Below are positions 2,713 through 32,190 of a stretch of DNA of 64,000 nt, in pieces. The stretch lies in IMG/VR virus record IMGVR_UViG_3300047382_000771, positions 1 to 64,000 of that record; one strand, given 5' to 3'. Each line of letters begins with the position of its first letter. The first letter of the stretch is position 1. A model generated the notes under the pieces. The model was not told the DNA's origin. It saw only the letters and a list, made by a program, of their open reading frames with translations, and searched no databases. This DNA comes from a virus. A program made the position numbers and the translations under genes.

Positions 2713-2873
2713 GACTTTTTTCCTGTTAAGTATAATTGAATTTGCTTTCTAATATATATTGCAAGTTCGACTTGAATACTTGTGGACAACAAATTTGGCG
2801 AAACTACATGGTATCCATTGTCTTTTATATAATTATCAATACCTTCTATAATCTTTTTATCTAAATTATCCAT
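2709..2873 (-). CDS. Hypothetical small protein (54 aa)
   Basis: The frame starts MDNLDKKIIEGIDNYIKDNG and ends LTGKKS with TGA inside the next promoter's -35 box. It begins 1 nt after the stop codon of the upstream gene, which favours translational coupling. No domain recognised. Confidence 0.55.
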   Translation of the reverse strand: MDNLDKKIIEGIDNYIKDNGYHVVSPNLLSTSIQVELAIYIRKQIQLYLTGKKS

Positions 2874-2874
2874 A

Positions 2875-3075
2875 TTACATTTCGTAAGTTTGCTCCAAAT
2901 CTGCTTGAGCGTAATCCTCGCTAGTCATTGTGCATTGCTCACCAAAAATACTTAGTCCACCCTCTTCAACTAATATTTCGCGCGCCTCTTCTTCTGTTTC
3001 TGCTTGTATTTCATAAACGAAAGCAGTTGGCACAGAGAAAACAAAATATTTATCCTTTTTCTTTTGAGTCTTCAT
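2875..3075 (-). CDS. DpnD/PcfM-like small protein (66 aa)
   Basis: The protein reads KYFVFSVPTAFVYEIQAETEEEAREI: a beta strand, then an xxA-x(4)-EA helix start, as in the genes at 2049 and 3353. The tail is acidic. It overlaps the upstream AbrB-like gene by 26 nt. The family role is unknown. Confidence 0.6.
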   Translation of the reverse strand: MKTQKKKDKYFVFSVPTAFVYEIQAETEEEAREILVEEGGLSIFGEQCTMTSEDYAQADLEQTYEM

Positions 3076-9758: not shown

Positions 9759-10760
9759 TTATTTTAATAAGTTATCTCTAAGAAGTTTGATTGCTTTATC
9801 TTTACCTTTTACTTCACATTCCCATTTAGCAGGTTTGTCGGGTTCAATCGCAATGTAAGGTGGGCAATTTCCTAAAGCAAAATACTCTGCATGAGCGCGA
9901 GGTTTTTCGGGAGTGCCTTCTGACCAATGAAAAACAGGGGCAATAAAATATCCTTCGCTATCACCTTGAGCAACCCATGTATGCGCGCAACGTTCTGCTT
10001 GAAATCCAACACTACCATCTTCTGATGGATTGCAATAGTCGTGCAAGTTGTCGTAGCAAACAGGAATATTAACGCCATGAACTGCAAACAAATACTCGCT
10101 AAATTTAATGCAATTATCTACATTGAAGAAACCTTTGTCTTCGTTCTCGATAGTAAGACGATTGTAAACACCTTTGTCGCACATGGAAAGATTGCGAAAA
10201 AATCTAGTAGCAACAACCTCTAATGTTTCGTCACCTTTAGGATTGTAATTAATATGAATGTTCATTGGGGCAGTATGATCTTGAGGTAAGCCTATTTTGT
10301 CAAGCACACTAGCTTGCATATTTAATTCCCCAATAGTTCTGCGAACTGCGTCGGGATTTGTAGATGCAAGAACATTAAATTGATCGGGGTGAGAACCCAT
10401 ACTTATGCCGTTCTCTCTAGCAGTTTTACCTACTTGTTTTAATTCTTGGTTAATTTGCTCAATATCGGGCAATTCATCAAGAGAAATCTCCAAAGTTTCA
10501 TCGGTAACGAGAGGAAAAAGAGCAGAACTAACACGATAATGCCCGATATTTGACTTAGCACAATGACCGACAATAGATTCAGTAACAACAACATTGTGCA
10601 AAATTCTACTAGATAGCTCCTTAATTGCTTCATTTCTACCTATACTTACACAAAGATCGTTAAATCTTTTGCGTGTCATAGTACGAAAAGAATATTCTTT
10701 TTTATCTATATCCTTTAGTTGTTCACTAATGCAAGTTAAGCCTAGAATTTGATGTGTCAT
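9759..10760 (-). CDS. uvsE: UV-damage endonuclease (UvdE/UvsE), intact
   Basis: UVDE is a TIM-barrel, metal-dependent endonuclease that nicks 5' of UV photoproducts and starts an alternative excision repair. All the expected metal-ligand positions can be matched: H74 (GHYRVSS), H124 (GSHPDQF), H169 (NIHIN), E205 (TIENEDKG), D237 and H240 (CYDNLHDYC), H278 (FHWSEG), H290 (RAHAEYF) and E316, with K318 beside it. At 333 residues it is near the usual family length. It heads its own transcript, with its ATG 6 nt after the -10, and the nuclease gene follows directly. A degenerate paralogue lies at 31069-32190. Confidence 0.93.
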   Translation of the reverse strand: MTHQILGLTCISEQLKDIDKKEYSFRTMTRKRFNDLCVSIGRNEAIKELSSRILHNVVVTESIVGHCAKSNIGHYRVSSALFPLVTDETLEISLDELPDIEQINQELKQVGKTARENGISMGSHPDQFNVLASTNPDAVRRTIGELNMQASVLDKIGLPQDHTAPMNIHINYNPKGDETLEVVATRFFRNLSMCDKGVYNRLTIENEDKGFFNVDNCIKFSEYLFAVHGVNIPVCYDNLHDYCNPSEDGSVGFQAERCAHTWVAQGDSEGYFIAPVFHWSEGTPEKPRAHAEYFALGNCPPYIAIEPDKPAKWECEVKGKDKAIKLLRDNLLK

Positions 10761-19498: not shown

Positions 19499-20053
19499 TT
19501 ATTTGTATAATTTCGAGTTGTTTTTTAGTCTTTGGATAACCCTTCTTTTATATGTATAAAATTGGGAATCCTTGGTTAATTTCATTGCGTAAACAATGTC
19601 TGCTTTAGACCAACCTTTAAGTTGGTATTCAAAAAATTCTTTTTCACGCGGAGGCATTAATTTATTTTTAATTTCATGCAAAATCTTCATCTGCTCTTCG
19701 TGTAATTCTCGTTTTAATATAGAATCAAAAGGCATTTTGCTTTCAACATGATGGAGGGAGTGAGCAAATGAATCTTCTGAATAATTTTCGTGTTCTTTAT
19801 TGCGTTTTTTTGCTGTTAAATAACCCATTATTTGCCAATGCAATATTGAGAACGCCCATCCATAAAAATTTCCACCATCCTTATAATCAGATTGTTTATT
19901 AATAATTATATTTAAAGTGTTTTGAACTACATCTTCAGCATCTTGTTTGTTGAATATTTTAGATTTAGCTTTACAGAGTAAAGGTCTGTGAACCATTGAA
20001 ATTTTATCCTCATAGCATATTGAATTATTTATTCTGTTTTTGAGGTCGCTCAC
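19499..20053 (-). CDS. ECF-type sigma-70 family factor (184 aa)
   Basis: Region 2 is visible as KAKSKIFNKQDAEDVVQNTLNIIINK with FYGWAFSILHWQIMGYL, matching the ECF sigma2 pattern AEDVVQ-x-T and F-x-GWAF. Region 4 is represented by LMPPREKEFFEYQLKGWSKADIVYAMKLTKDSQFYTYKRRVIQRL, a helix-turn-helix in the usual place. Length fits ECF factors. It would redirect host RNA polymerase to a phage promoter class. The GTG start overlaps the upstream TGA. It belongs to the unit behind the palindrome promoter at 21247. Confidence 0.8.
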   Translation of the reverse strand: MSDLKNRINNSICYEDKISMVHRPLLCKAKSKIFNKQDAEDVVQNTLNIIINKQSDYKDGGNFYGWAFSILHWQIMGYLTAKKRNKEHENYSEDSFAHSLHHVESKMPFDSILKRELHEEQMKILHEIKNKLMPPREKEFFEYQLKGWSKADIVYAMKLTKDSQFYTYKRRVIQRLKNNSKLYK

Positions 20054-23913: not shown

Positions 23914-24630
23914 CTATGCAGTTGATTTCAATGAAGTATTAAACTTCGACCTGTACTTTGCACGTTTTGGGCCGAATAAATAATTAACAGAAGCCATGCC
24001 TTCTTTAATTACGGTATCTTCAGACTTAGATATTGACCCCTTTTTAATGTGACAGGATATTCTCTCATTTATTTCTTGGACGCAAACGGATATAGCTTGG
24101 TGAGTAATGCCTATAGCATCACCTACTTCATCAAACGTGTTGCCTTTCATAACAAATTCAAGAACAACTTTTTGCCTCTCAGATAGAAAGTGGCTGTAAT
24201 CAAAAATCCATTTTTTTAAATTTTCATATCTTTGGCTAGCGTCTAGTTTTTTGAACTCTGGATCTTCTTCTGCTTGGGTAGAGCATATTAATTCAAAATA
24301 TGTTGTCTCTTCAGGCCCAGTACCAGCATGAGTATCTACCTTTAAGTTGGAATATTTTTTGTCTTTTGGGGTGCATCCATCGGCAGTCCATTTGATATAA
24401 TTTCTAGCATAAGAATATGCTATTTTTTTAAAGTTATTAAAATCGATAACCCCTTTTTTTTCTATTAGTTTCTGCCTGTCTCTAACTAAGGCTCTATTAA
24501 CTTCAGATAAAACTTCTGAGTGACCTAATAAATGGTTAGAGAACCTATGCTTTCCAATAATTCTCGCTAGATCATCTTGGTAATCAACGAGCCATTTGTC
24601 GAATTCTTTATTTAATTCAATTTGATTCAT
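23914..24630 (-). CDS. Sigma-like RNA polymerase factor (238 aa)
   Basis: The C-terminal part contains FLSERQKVVLEFVMKGNTFDEVGDAIGITHQAISVCVQEINERI (residues about 145-188), a clear sigma region 4 helix-turn-helix. The N-terminal half (LLGHSEVLSEVNRALVRDRQK...FNNFKKIAYSYARNYIKW) fits region 2 loosely. About 50 residues follow region 4. It would be the second phage sigma-like protein in the window and a candidate reader of the late motif. It overlaps the upstream gene by 14 nt. Confidence 0.7.
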   Translation of the reverse strand: MNQIELNKEFDKWLVDYQDDLARIIGKHRFSNHLLGHSEVLSEVNRALVRDRQKLIEKKGVIDFNNFKKIAYSYARNYIKWTADGCTPKDKKYSNLKVDTHAGTGPEETTYFELICSTQAEEDPEFKKLDASQRYENLKKWIFDYSHFLSERQKVVLEFVMKGNTFDEVGDAIGITHQAISVCVQEINERISCHIKKGSISKSEDTVIKEGMASVNYLFGPKRAKYRSKFNTSLKSTA

Positions 24631-25793: not shown

Positions 25794-25803
25794 GTATAGT
25801 CCA

Positions 25804-26397
25804 CTATTTGGCTGGTTCAGTTTGGAAATTTTTTTTGATATCTGATTTTTCAAAGAAACCAGATTGCAAAATATGGCCCACACACTTAGAGGGGAAGTCT
25901 TCATCGAATGTTGGCCAAGATATTTGGTAATCAATGAAGCTTTTAAATAATTCATACTGTTCTGACTCATCCTTGTTTGCTGGCCCAATCCCTTCTCTGC
26001 GCATATTAATTAATGCCCCGCCTTTAGATTTAATCCATTGAGCTTCGTTCAAGAACCTGACATCAGTAATAAAAACATATTTATCATTCTGTAAGTTATA
26101 ATCTACCCCAAAGTTAATTTTGTCTATCCAGCAATTAGGGTTTAGTTTTCTTCTTATTTCTGTACCATAAGTTACAAGAAGTGGTCTTATTATTTTTTTT
26201 TCTGAATCCTTTGTAGCGAAAGCAGATATGCCTGTATGCTTAAGCAAAAGATCATCTAGCTCTTCTTTTAAAGCATCGGCAAAGGAATAACGCACTACTG
26301 AATCGTTAGGGTCAGTAAGAACTTCTTTGCAGCATTGATAAAAAGTATCTTTGCCAGAACGAGCAAAGCCTGATATTCCAATTAATTTATTCTTCAT
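25804..26397 (-). CDS. Deoxynucleoside monophosphate kinase (197 aa)
   Basis: The N-terminal P-loop is GFARSGKDTFYQCC (residues about 10-23), the signature of T4 gp1-type dNMP kinases, which phosphorylate dTMP, dGMP and modified dCMP. Further signs are FADALKEELDDLL, GTEIRRKLNPNCWIDKI and FITDVRFLNEAQWIKSKGGALINMRREG, the usual helix and LID regions. Length is close to the family. It serves the same pool as ThyX and dUTPase. It overlaps the upstream gene by 11 nt. Confidence 0.9.
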   Translation of the reverse strand: MKNKLIGISGFARSGKDTFYQCCKEVLTDPNDSVVRYSFADALKEELDDLLLKHTGISAFATKDSEKKIIRPLLVTYGTEIRRKLNPNCWIDKINFGVDYNLQNDKYVFITDVRFLNEAQWIKSKGGALINMRREGIGPANKDESEQYELFKSFIDYQISWPTFDEDFPSKCVGHILQSGFFEKSDIKKNFQTEPAK

Positions 26398-26607: not shown

Positions 26608-26636
26608 ATTATAATATATAGTCCACTATTTTTCAA
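26608..26636 (-). promoter_or_regulatory. Class I promoter with perfect -10
   Basis: TTGAAA (26631-26636), 17 nt, TATAAT (26608-26613); the ATG is 5 nt downstream. The gap between the methyltransferase stop and the next gene holds nothing else. Confidence 0.75.
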
Positions 26637-26656: not shown

Positions 26657-27769
26657 TTAGGCTTTGCGTTTTTTAGGTATAGACTGCAGTAAAGATAAAC
26701 ACATCTTAGGTAAAAAAAGTTCGCCTAATACTTTTCTTATGAAATTTTGACTGTATTTATATTTAAATGTTCCATCATCCTGCTTTGTCGCAAATTTATC
26801 TAAGCAATTGCTTGGTAGCCCGCACAGAGCAAGTAATTCACGCACAGATAAAACTCTAGCATCGGATTGAGTTCCATCACGTAAAGGTAAACCTGGATGC
26901 ACATTGTTCTGGCTTGATATAGACCCATTAGTCATAGTGACTGTAGGGGACGGATCGTTCCATGAAATTCTTTTGTATGTTGTCTTGAAACCTTTAATCA
27001 TCCTCTTCTTCCCGCCTTCTATGATGTGTGGAAAATGAACTTTATTGTCGAAAGCTGTTTGCCCCTCTGGAGTATGGCTCATCCATGTTATATGATTAGA
27101 GTTGTGTTTAGATGCAAAGTGCCAAGGATATTTTGATTGCTCCCCACTCTCCAGAGAAGGAAATTGGTTAGTGTCACCTATGACATCTTTTACTTTTAAA
27201 ATACCAGAATCAGCTTTAGGGTGTTCCCATAAGCCGTTTTCTGATATCAAGCAAATGCTTCTGCTTCTAGATTGGGCTGTACCAAAATGTTTACCATTCA
27301 GAACTTTTACTTTACAGTTATAATTTGAAGGTATTATTTTATTTATAAAATCTATAATTTTAATAGGGCTATCTTCGTGATTTATATATGTGTTTGGCAT
27401 TGCTGGAACATTTTCTATCAACATGTATTTAGGTTTCAGTTGATTAAATATATCCATAGCATAAATAATTAATTTATTCCTAACATCGTCTGTTGCTCTT
27501 TGGGCATTAGCAATGCTCATTCCTTGACAAGGAGGGGTTGCCATAATTAAATCTATTGGCCCAGATTTTTTAGACGCGTCTATAATACTATTTCTAACGT
27601 CTTCTTTACAAATATCCCCACAAATAGTGCTTGTGGAATCTTCGTAAAAATCATTATAAAAGTCTACTCGATCTTGGAGTAGTTCATTCATGACCACAAC
27701 ATCAAAACCGTTCTCTTTCAAGAAGAACTCACCAAAACCTACATTTGCGAATAAAGATAAAACTTTCAT
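26657..27769 (-). CDS. C5-cytosine DNA methyltransferase (370 aa)
   Basis: The order of motifs is complete: motif I LSLFANVGFGEFFLKENGF, motif IV TPPCQGMS with the catalytic Cys near residue 80, motif VI LIENVP, motif VIII QSRSRSICL, then the TRD region and motif IX/X (PSPTVTMTNG, ARVLSVRELLALCGLP...YSQNFIRKVLGELF). It transfers methyl from SAM to C5 of cytosine, probably to protect phage DNA. No cognate restriction enzyme lies beside it. It is expressed from the promoter embedded in a terminator at 27782-27822. Confidence 0.93.
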   Translation of the reverse strand: MKVLSLFANVGFGEFFLKENGFDVVVMNELLQDRVDFYNDFYEDSTSTICGDICKEDVRNSIIDASKKSGPIDLIMATPPCQGMSIANAQRATDDVRNKLIIYAMDIFNQLKPKYMLIENVPAMPNTYINHEDSPIKIIDFINKIIPSNYNCKVKVLNGKHFGTAQSRSRSICLISENGLWEHPKADSGILKVKDVIGDTNQFPSLESGEQSKYPWHFASKHNSNHITWMSHTPEGQTAFDNKVHFPHIIEGGKKRMIKGFKTTYKRISWNDPSPTVTMTNGSISSQNNVHPGLPLRDGTQSDARVLSVRELLALCGLPSNCLDKFATKQDDGTFKYKYSQNFIRKVLGELFLPKMCLSLLQSIPKKRKA

Positions 27770-27781
27770 ATATATAAAAAA

Positions 27782-27810
27782 AGAGGGACGACCATTATAG
27801 TCGCCCCTCT
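27782..27810 (-). terminator. Rho-independent terminator whose loop holds a -10 box
   Basis: On the minus strand AGAGGGGCGAC pairs with GTCGTCCCTCT (11 bp with one G-U), with a 7-nt loop, followed by a run of seven T. The loop TATAATG contains the -10 of the next promoter. It lies after the 86-residue holin-like gene and should stop transcripts arriving from upstream. Confidence 0.85.
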
Positions 27811-27822
27811 CTTAAAAGTCAA
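27794..27822 (-). promoter_or_regulatory. Class I promoter inside the terminator loop
   Basis: TTGACT (27817-27822), 17 nt, TATAAT (27794-27799) for the methyltransferase gene, ATG at 27769. A transcript starting about 7 nt after the -10 lacks the 5' arm of the hairpin, so it escapes termination while read-through transcripts are stopped. Confidence 0.8.
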
Positions 27823-27834
27823 GGATAAAAACGA

Positions 27835-28095
27835 TTATTTATCCTTAGAACATTGGCCTCCGTCGCAACTGAGTTTGCCGATTAAAGCAACCACAAGTAC
27901 CAAAGTGATAAAAGAAGTGAAATTAGCTCCAGTTCCCACAAAACCTTCAAGTAGGCCTTGTAGATTACCGATTACATTCACAGGAGCAGAAGCTCCAAAC
28001 ACTGCTTGGACTACAACGAGGAGCCCAAGGACGCTAAGTAGGGTAGCGGCAATACCTTTGATTGCGCAACTAATTTTTTGTAATGTATCCTTCAT
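27835..28095 (-). CDS. Holin-like two-span membrane protein (86 aa)
   Basis: Two hydrophobic segments are at residues about 12-35 (IKGIAATLLSVLGLLVVVQAVFG) and 59-76 (NFTSFITLVLVVALIGKL), with a soluble loop and a charged CSKDK tail. This resembles class II holins and other phage membrane proteins. No endolysin is identified nearby, so lysis is inference. It is followed by the terminator and lies 25 nt from the outer-membrane protein gene. Confidence 0.55.
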   Translation of the reverse strand: MKDTLQKISCAIKGIAATLLSVLGLLVVVQAVFGASAPVNVIGNLQGLLEGFVGTGANFTSFITLVLVVALIGKLSCDGGQCSKDK

Positions 28096-30644: not shown

Positions 30645-31043
30645 TGGTGGACGTGGCGGGAGTTGAACCCGCGTCTTTAAAGCTTCAAGCGTTCACTTCT
30701 ACAAGCTTAGTCTATTTTTTTTAAAGTTATGATATAGACATCCAACTACTCGTTTTAATTATTCACTCAAACTTGAGGACCCCGAATAATCAGTGGTGCA
30801 GTTTTTAAAACTAGTAAAAATTTATCAGTTTTTACAGATAAATGACCCACATATTCTTATCTGTGTCAGATTATATGAGTTGGCAGGTGTTAAGCTGCCA
30901 TTTCGAGACCAAGCTCAATAGAGTCAAGGTCTACAACACGCTGAGAAGATTCTGCATGTATAAATTTGCGCCTTATTTAGGAGCCAGACGCACTCCTGCT
31001 TGCCATGAACCAATCCAATTTAAATCGAATCCAGAACACGCCC
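30645..31043 (-). ncRNA. ssrA: tmRNA (ssrA), one-piece
   Basis: The 5' end GGGCGTGTTCTGGATTCGA and the 3' end GCCACGTCCACCA form the tRNA-like domain: GGGCGTG pairs with CACGTCC over 7 bp, and the T arm has GGGTTCAACTCCC. A CCA is encoded. Pseudoknot 1 is visible: AGGAG pairs with CTCCT, and TGCGTC pairs with GGCGCA. The tag frame starts at GCA (30953-30955) and runs to TAA at 30890-30892, giving 21 residues that start AESSQRVVDL and end LGLEMAA, with the usual C-terminal Ala-Ala degradation signal. It rescues stalled ribosomes and tags peptides. It lies between the degenerate UvdE and the dUTPase run; phage-encoded tmRNAs are known but uncommon. Confidence 0.95.
30890..30955 (-). other. tmRNA tag-peptide reading frame
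   Basis: The resume codon GCA at 30953-30955 follows pseudoknot 1 at the expected distance. The frame ends GAA-ATG-GCA-GCT-TAA at 30890, encoding EMAA at the tag end. A competing GCA (frame ANLYMQNL...) overlaps the pseudoknot 3' strand and ends SVL, unlike known tags. Confidence 0.8.
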
Positions 31044-31068: not shown

Positions 31069-32190
31069 TTATTGAGAACTAGTGAATTGAACATCTCCAC
31101 CTTGGGAAACTATATCACTTCTTCTAGCTGACTCATACAATGCATTGTAGTTATCAGAAACTTTCCTGTACTTCCTGCGAGCAATCTCAAGCAATGCATC
31201 TTCAGACATTCTAGATGGAGCATCTGGGCCCATTAATTTAATAATGGCGATATCTTTATCTGTAACATCTACTTCCCATTTAATCTGGTAACCAAAATCT
31301 GGTATGGGTTGAGATAATTCTTTAGCATGAGCACGAGAACCTGGCTCTTTAGATTCAGACCAAGTAAATACAGGTACTACTCCATTCCAAGTTTCGTGAA
31401 AAGCTCCCACATTAACTTGTTGGTCAACTGTGGCCCCAGCGACTTTGGAAGGGTTGAGTTCGTCGAATAAATTATTATAAGCCAAGGGGAAACCGAAGTC
31501 ATGTTCTTCGTAGCAATATACGTGAAAGTATTTAAATAATCCAAATGCACTCCAAGATCCAGAGTCTGCATTTTTAAGCACTAACCTTTTCTGAGTATTG
31601 CTATCTAATAATTTAAAATTTTCATAGAACCTATCGACAAAATCACAATATGCTTCGTGGTTTTCTGCATCAGGCTGGGAGCTTAAATGCAAGGAGATTG
31701 GGGAAGAAATATTTTCTTGAGCTCCTATTTCATCTAAGAACCAGGAGTAAAAATTAAGTTCTTTTATGGATTTTTCAACAATAGAATCATCCGAATCTAT
31801 CAACTTACAAAACTTATCTGGCTGAATGGAAATAGAAACACCTTTTGTGATCGATGTTCTTCCGATATTTTTTATACCTTCAGACAATAAAGACTGATTC
31901 GGTAAGTTTGAGAAATCAATATCGAAAGAAGAATCAGCCAACAATCCAAACACAGAAGTGTTTAGTCTGTAATGATCTATATCGTTTGCCCTGCAGAAAT
32001 CTAATATTCGAACAGTTAGTTCGAGATTAGATAAAACTTGATTAGATAAAACCTCTAAAGCTTCTGACTCGCCCTTCTCTGAAGATAAGGCAGCGAACTG
32101 CTTACGAGTCATCGCTTTAAAGGTGTTTAAAGATGCATCTTCTTCTTGAAGATGCTTTGAGACGCAGATTAATCCATATTTAGTATTCAT
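31069..32190 (-). CDS. Degenerate UvdE paralogue (373 aa), probably non-catalytic
   Basis: The protein aligns along its length to the intact UvdE at 9759: YGLICVSKHLQ, HYRLNTSVFG, SISIQPDKF, SLHLSS, LVLKNADSG, AYNNLFDELNP, FTWSES and SRAHAKE are the matching blocks. Of the nine ligand positions, H124, E205, D237, H240 and H278 are replaced by Q123, K206, N239, F242 and T276; H73, H168 and H288 remain, and E316 is D308. K318 is T310. Metal-dependent cleavage is unlikely. A roughly 50-residue C-terminal tail is extra. It is preceded by the late motif, so it may be a structural or DNA-binding virion component. Confidence 0.85.
   Translation of the reverse strand: MNTKYGLICVSKHLQEEDASLNTFKAMTRKQFAALSSEKGESEALEVLSNQVLSNLELTVRILDFCRANDIDHYRLNTSVFGLLADSSFDIDFSNLPNQSLLSEGIKNIGRTSITKGVSISIQPDKFCKLIDSDDSIVEKSIKELNFYSWFLDEIGAQENISSPISLHLSSQPDAENHEAYCDFVDRFYENFKLLDSNTQKRLVLKNADSGSWSAFGLFKYFHVYCYEEHDFGFPLAYNNLFDELNPSKVAGATVDQQVNVGAFHETWNGVVPVFTWSESKEPGSRAHAKELSQPIPDFGYQIKWEVDVTDKDIAIIKLMGPDAPSRMSEDALLEIARRKYRKVSDNYNALYESARRSDIVSQGGDVQFTSSQ

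Follow-up and report, generated by a model that had tools for sequence, protein, structure and literature searches.

A putative fused terminator and promoter at phage gene junctions

Results

A terminator-like hairpin and a predicted promoter on the same bases

On the minus strand of a contig from a large uncultured phage, between a gene for an 86-aa membrane-protein-like product and a C5 DNA methyltransferase gene, we identified an element of about 45 bp that is likely an intrinsic terminator fused with a sigma70-type promoter. The arrangement of its parts is observed directly; termination, initiation, the use of host sigma70 and the start site are inferred. The element lies in the window, namely the whole 64,000-nucleotide stretch of DNA that was analyzed, which belongs to a record of 200,094 bases.

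The components of the element are collected in Table 1. The promoter-like sequence TTGACT-17-TATAAT matches the consensus at 11 of 12 letters. On the minus strand, TATAAT is followed by the 11 nt GGTCGTCCCTC and then by the T-run, which ATATATATG separates from the methyltransferase ATG (27769-27767). An earlier note on this DNA had described an 11-bp hairpin with seven T, a 7-nt loop containing TATAAT, and TTGACT 17 nt upstream, and all of these are present in the sequence: read manually, the stem has 11 pairs, including one G-U, and closes on the loop TATAATG. The energy model assigns -24.2 kcal/mol to the 35-nt hairpin (z -7.2), and none of 200 shuffles was equally good. RNA from about 27787 onwards is instead predicted to have no fold (0 kcal/mol), in agreement with the further claim that the hairpin is out of reach for a transcript starting past the -10, which has no 5' arm. 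From the predicted start, the methyltransferase leader would measure about 20 nt, with no obvious Shine-Dalgarno sequence detectable by eye. The label 'holin-like', which the note had given to the 86-aa gene, is not backed, as neither PHROGs nor Pfam returned a match for this gene. The only Rfam matches in the window were tRNA and tmRNA, with no known leader or riboswitch family at the element.

Table 1. Parts of the element and its flanking genes, in window coordinates.
Feature	Position	Strand	Remarks
86-aa membrane-protein-like gene, upstream	27835..28095	-	no PHROGs/Pfam profile match; relatives exist
-35 hexamer TTGACT	27822-27817	-	12 nt past the end of the 86-aa gene
Terminator hairpin	27813-27779	-	16 pairs, loop UAA (energy model); covariation
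-10 hexamer TATAAT	27799-27794	-	occupies hairpin loop and innermost pairs; 17-nt spacer to -35
Predicted transcription start	27786..27789	-	5-8 nt past -10, within 3' arm; inferred from promoter geometry
T-run, seven T	27782-27776	-	terminator U-tract and start of methyltransferase leader
C5 cytosine DNA methyltransferase, 370 aa, downstream	26657..27769	-	PF00145, E 7.4e-41 from residue 1; phrog_116

A second stem-loop, AAGGATAAA...TTTATCCTT (window 27821-27846, minus strand), straddles the 86-aa gene's stop codon; the last letters of its 3' arm are the TT that opens the -35. Arms resembling it were seen by eye in four related loci (L003, L004, L007 and L011).

We compared the components with their chance level. 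Between positions 20000 and 36000 we counted 9 terminator-like sites, against a mean of 8.8 in shuffled sequences; the class as a whole therefore provides no evidence, whereas the composite hairpin, the strongest of the 9, does. Promoter-like sites numbered 71 in the window, with 54 expected. TTGACT and TATAAT separated by 15 to 19 nt were found twice in the window (0.14 expected), and only two such sites, both on the minus strand, occur in the whole record. The composite scan of the window returned exactly one element and did not flag the other strong TTGACT-17-TATAAT site (30626-30598, minus strand), which indicates that this phage does not build every promoter as a composite. That other site begins 18 nt past the end of a tmRNA gene (30645-31043, tag AESSQRVVDLDSIELGLEMAA). 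As judged from sequence comparison, it is conservation in relatives that puts the element beyond chance.

Relatives at the same gene end

Nine loci were returned when the 86-aa protein served as the query. In five of them (L003, L004, L007, L009 and L010) the methyltransferase gene comes next and the element is present; in the other four (L005, L006, L008 and L011) a different gene comes next and an ordinary terminator takes the place of the element. The single methyltransferase protein used as a query detected no relatives, while a six-row methyltransferase alignment returned 69 loci, most of which are more distant homologues without a composite. These methyltransferase loci contributed L014, L015, L029, L030 and L036 as further carriers of the element. 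L030 and L036 are near-identical across it, and L015, which has a weaker T-run, was missed by the initial filter. A search for the same design in relatives, as the earlier note had advised, thus found it there, and all 11 element sequences, window included, have a relative of the 86-aa gene directly upstream. When proteins of named phages were searched, only relatives with less than 60% identity were found.

In another five loci (L019, L020, L022, L025 and L040) the relative of the 86-aa gene lies 1.6-2.1 kb from the methyltransferase gene and ends in an ordinary terminator; most of these loci have a promoter-like sequence further on, as seen by eye. In L243 the element is flanked by the 86-aa gene and by a 71-aa gene that elsewhere lies beyond the methyltransferase gene, with no methyltransferase in between. 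The scan from which this locus came had the promoter as a selection criterion, which makes the locus a biased addition to the tally. Overall, 21 ends of the 86-aa gene were examined, 12 with a composite and 9 with an ordinary terminator whose loop contains no -10 (two were folded and the others judged by eye). Past several of these 9 terminators lies a promoter-like sequence that is separate from them, again by eye. The composite is present at all 11 ends where the methyltransferase gene comes next and at only one of the 10 where it does not (P-value 3e-5, Fisher test, not corrected for relatedness).

The tight layout is not universal, since in L029 a leader of about 75 nt separates the element from the methyltransferase start. 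Past the composite of L029, at 2871-3000, a long-loop inverted repeat (CTAACCTTA...TAAGGTTAG) with seven T precedes the methyltransferase start and represents a possible attenuator.

Conservation of pairing and of promoter letters

The 11 element sequences, again with the window among them, were aligned (alignment A3). In the stem, 97.6% of the 165 cells pair, compared to 82.9% after shuffling, and 11 of the 15 pairs underwent two-sided changes (5.2 in shuffles). Covariation reached 0.691, compared to 0.352 in shuffled alignments, and was as high in none of 500 shuffles; all pairing measures drop when the register is slid. In the -35 region, CTTGACTT is invariant in all 11 rows, the spacing to the -10 is always 17, and the -10 reads TATAAT in 10 rows and TATTAT in the remaining one (L007). 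The letters of the stem vary while their pairing holds, so that the dyad is not conserved as a protein site would be. Two layers of constraint thus appear to act on the same bases, one on pairing and the other on promoter letters and spacing.

The terminator role is likely to be conserved because of the compensatory changes, the kept U-tract and the ordinary terminators of the nine relatives without a composite. Similarly, the promoter role is likely to be conserved because both hexamers and their distance of 17 nt are preserved and the methyltransferase start follows directly in most loci. The dual role that the earlier note had attributed to these few bases is supported to this extent, with termination and initiation themselves remaining inferred.

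The conserved U-tract bears on the idea that the site is a promoter only, whose hairpin acts as DNA, either as a cruciform or as a single-strand hairpin promoter. The dyad is long and phage N4 has hairpin promoters, which lend this idea some appeal. However, both sigma70 hexamers at 17 nt and the U-tract suit ordinary signals, and relatives without the promoter still have the hairpin and the T-run, so that of all the readings considered we give this one the least credit. No match to the single-subunit RNA polymerase (PF00940) was found in the phage, but none was found in any control genome either.

Recurrence in viral contigs

We scanned viral contigs for TTGACT-17-TATAAT followed after 10 to 16 nt by T7, without requiring a hairpin, and the resulting counts are samples rather than frequencies. 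With duplicates removed on a key of 50 letters, 27 of the 88 unique TTGACT sites among the matches listed have a loop overlapping the -10 and a 3' arm that enters the T-run, when 0.74 are expected if the variable parts are shuffled. With a 45-letter key, and again among the matches listed, the hairpin surrounds the -10 in 26 of 87 unique TTGACT sites (0.14 expected from shuffles) and in 21 of 96 unique TTGACA sites (0.12 expected). For TTGACA an earlier test had given 20 of 97; the difference is due to a slightly different hairpin test and to one site near a contig end that was dropped. Under a common test that is independent of the tail, 47 of the 183 listed viral sites with promoter and T7 have a hairpin around the -10.

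No such hairpin was found at any of the 117 listed viral sites with A7 instead of T7, at any of the 114 T7 sites among the matches listed from prokaryote genome contigs (many of them Clostridia), or at any of 18 unique sites with the promoter reversed and T7; these 18 are what remained, once duplicates were removed, of the 31 stretches that an exhaustive scan had found. Fisher tests on the listed matches give P-values of 8e-12 for the comparison with A7 and 1e-11 for that with the prokaryote genome sample, without correction for relatedness. Since the hairpin is absent from all three controls, it belongs to the T-run. Chance overlap of a terminator with a promoter was rejected on the grounds of conservation together with these same controls, as far as the matches listed go.

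A closely related possibility is that the element is merely a terminator, that TTGACT and TATAAT are there by chance, and that expression of the methyltransferase relies on read-through or on a start at some other place. Terminators are dense in phage DNA, which is A+T rich, and promoter-like sites exceed expectation in the window, as reported above. This reading nevertheless fails to account for a -35, spacer and -10 that are kept while the stem letters change, for nine relatives with a terminator devoid of promoter hexamers at the same gene end, and for the empty prokaryote genome sample among the matches listed, and we regard it as highly unlikely.

The composites are not confined to one gene pair. 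Near-identical contigs inflate their number. We grouped the genes around the 46 composites among the matches listed (26 of 87 and 20 of 97) into families. These composites precede 22 downstream-gene families, and the 43 that have an upstream frame fall into 23 upstream clusters. In 43 of the 46, with up to 200 nt permitted, an upstream frame of at least 40 aa ends between -4 and 29 nt before the -35, and in 35 of the 46 the start of the downstream frame that was chosen is no more than 61 nt away from the -10. Ten downstream representatives were scanned: seven match a family of named function (exonuclease, found twice, nucleotidyltransferase, MazG, dCMP deaminase, single-strand-binding protein and endonuclease), two match families of unknown function and one has no match. 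Two further downstream representatives match proteins that are annotated in named phages as clamp loaders and DNA ligases. The ten upstream representatives include a sliding clamp, a UvsX-like recombinase, MazG, a tail fibre and a phosphate-transporter subunit, and three of them have no match. Unexpectedly, many unrelated junctions between phage genes share the design, and, as far as sequence alone can tell, it seems to have arisen at many.

The composite is not universal, because neither stretches of seven named isolates nor pieces of five other records held a convincing one. Only weak matches were detected in the stretches, not whole genomes, of Melnitz, T4, DLP_6, S-SM2, Vibrio 496E54-1, PVP-SE1 and HTVC008M, and in smaller pieces of the records of S-SKS1, P-SSM2, S-SRM01, AG-345-F15 and Mel-JY01. 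The initial pattern scan found no composite at its own pattern sites. A looser filter returned 7 look-alikes in 0.82 Mb of genome contigs, including L487, in which each hexamer agrees with the consensus at 5 of 6 letters.

Hairpins around the -10 also occur apart from T-runs. At 123 unique promoter-like sites chosen without a T-run, we observed 8 hairpins of at least 7 bp around the -10, compared to 1.8 expected in shuffles, and none of the 8 had a nearby T5. On this basis a minor operator-like class may exist. The excess is relevant to the possibility that the dyad over the -10 is an operator, bound by the methyltransferase or by a repressor of the phage that thereby turns off its own promoter, with the T-run being incidental. 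Some C5 methyltransferases do repress their own promoters, and in L020 and L025 an inverted repeat without a T-run was seen by eye around the -10, just before position 3001 and upstream of a related methyltransferase gene. Against an operator, it is the pairing and not the stem letters that is conserved, L243 keeps the composite with no methyltransferase at that place, and, among the matches listed, the hairpins vanish when A7 replaces T7. Moreover, the genes downstream are of many families, and the PF00145 match leaves no N-terminal DNA-binding extension to be seen. Varying stem letters, the A7 control among the matches listed and L243 led us to reject an autoregulatory methyltransferase operator as the main reading, and we consider it improbable for this site. 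In L020 and L025 the methyltransferase ATG follows so closely that a leaderless mRNA is possible.

Other features of the phage

The 200-kb record contains exactly two copies of the motif TAGTGGACTATA, at window positions 25795-25806 and 26617-26628 (minus strand). The second copy lies just upstream of the 71-aa gene, and a similar stretch precedes the 71-aa gene in L243; this motif is possibly a phage-specific promoter or operator. Two proteins resembling sigma factors or regulators (window 19499-20053 and 23914-24630, minus strand) gave sub-threshold matches to Sigma70_r2 and a GerE-type helix-turn-helix, and phage-encoded sigma factors are possible. There are two UvdE-like UV endonuclease genes on the minus strand, one of which (31069-32190) matches PF03851 and the other (9759-10760) was judged by eye. 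The same 21 bases are found in one orientation near both ends of the record (G000:C1 27-47 and 199960-199980), which hints at a terminal repeat and hence at a complete or circular genome.

Discussion

If the element is the fused terminator and promoter that we propose, a polymerase arriving from the 86-aa gene would copy both arms, the RNA hairpin would form, and most transcripts would end in the U-tract. A polymerase recruited by TTGACT-17-TATAAT would instead start a new RNA within the 3' arm, at about 27789-27786. Without the 5' arm, this RNA would form no hairpin, pass the T-run unterminated and express the methyltransferase. The same base pairs would in this way insulate one unit and start the next. 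Lying no more than 20 nt into the new RNA, the T-run could cause slippage, and the hairpin could slow promoter opening or bind a regulator. A polymerase that stops in the U-tract sits on the promoter of the following unit, and strong flow from upstream could therefore occlude this promoter.

In its parts the element resembles known signals. Like an intrinsic terminator, it has a G+C-rich hairpin followed by a U-tract shortly past a stop codon, but its loop and innermost pairs carry a -10 placed 17 nt from a -35. Both hexamers are those of a sigma70 promoter, except that the -10 sits in a terminator loop and the predicted transcript enters a U-tract. The tandem arrangement seen by eye in L019, L020, L022 and L040 serves the same two jobs at the same gene end, with the promoter-like sequence beyond the terminator rather than superimposed on it. 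Close or overlapping terminator-promoter pairs probably exist singly. Our searches of the open-access literature turned up no account of a recurrent phage element in which the two are superimposed, and isolated older cases are possible.

It is also conceivable, and in our opinion rather doubtful, that phages widely use such sites for a hand-over, in which the polymerase that releases the upstream RNA keeps or picks up sigma70 and restarts at the superimposed promoter. If so, downstream output would be tied to upstream termination flux, even though the units yield two separate mRNAs that are at no point connected. According to one study (Kang et al. 2020, PMC6978380), E. coli polymerase in vitro mostly stays on the DNA after termination, slides along it and is able to restart at promoters close by. 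The study reports restart on a downstream unit after 37% of terminations, or 55% with added sigma70, and states that restart would depend on the distance between terminator and promoter and had not yet been observed in vivo. The templates used there were built for the purpose and tested in vitro, whereas the composite is natural and has essentially zero distance.

Conclusions

The fused terminator and promoter would be a compact device for ending one transcript and beginning another that needs no regulator. The nascent RNA itself would distinguish two kinds of polymerase, with the hairpin forming only when the RNA began upstream. Synthetic circuits may gain a very small insulated part from such an element, which may also offer a natural test of polymerase recycling at zero distance. 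It would also affect how phage operons are drawn, as a predicted terminator may be the promoter of the next unit.
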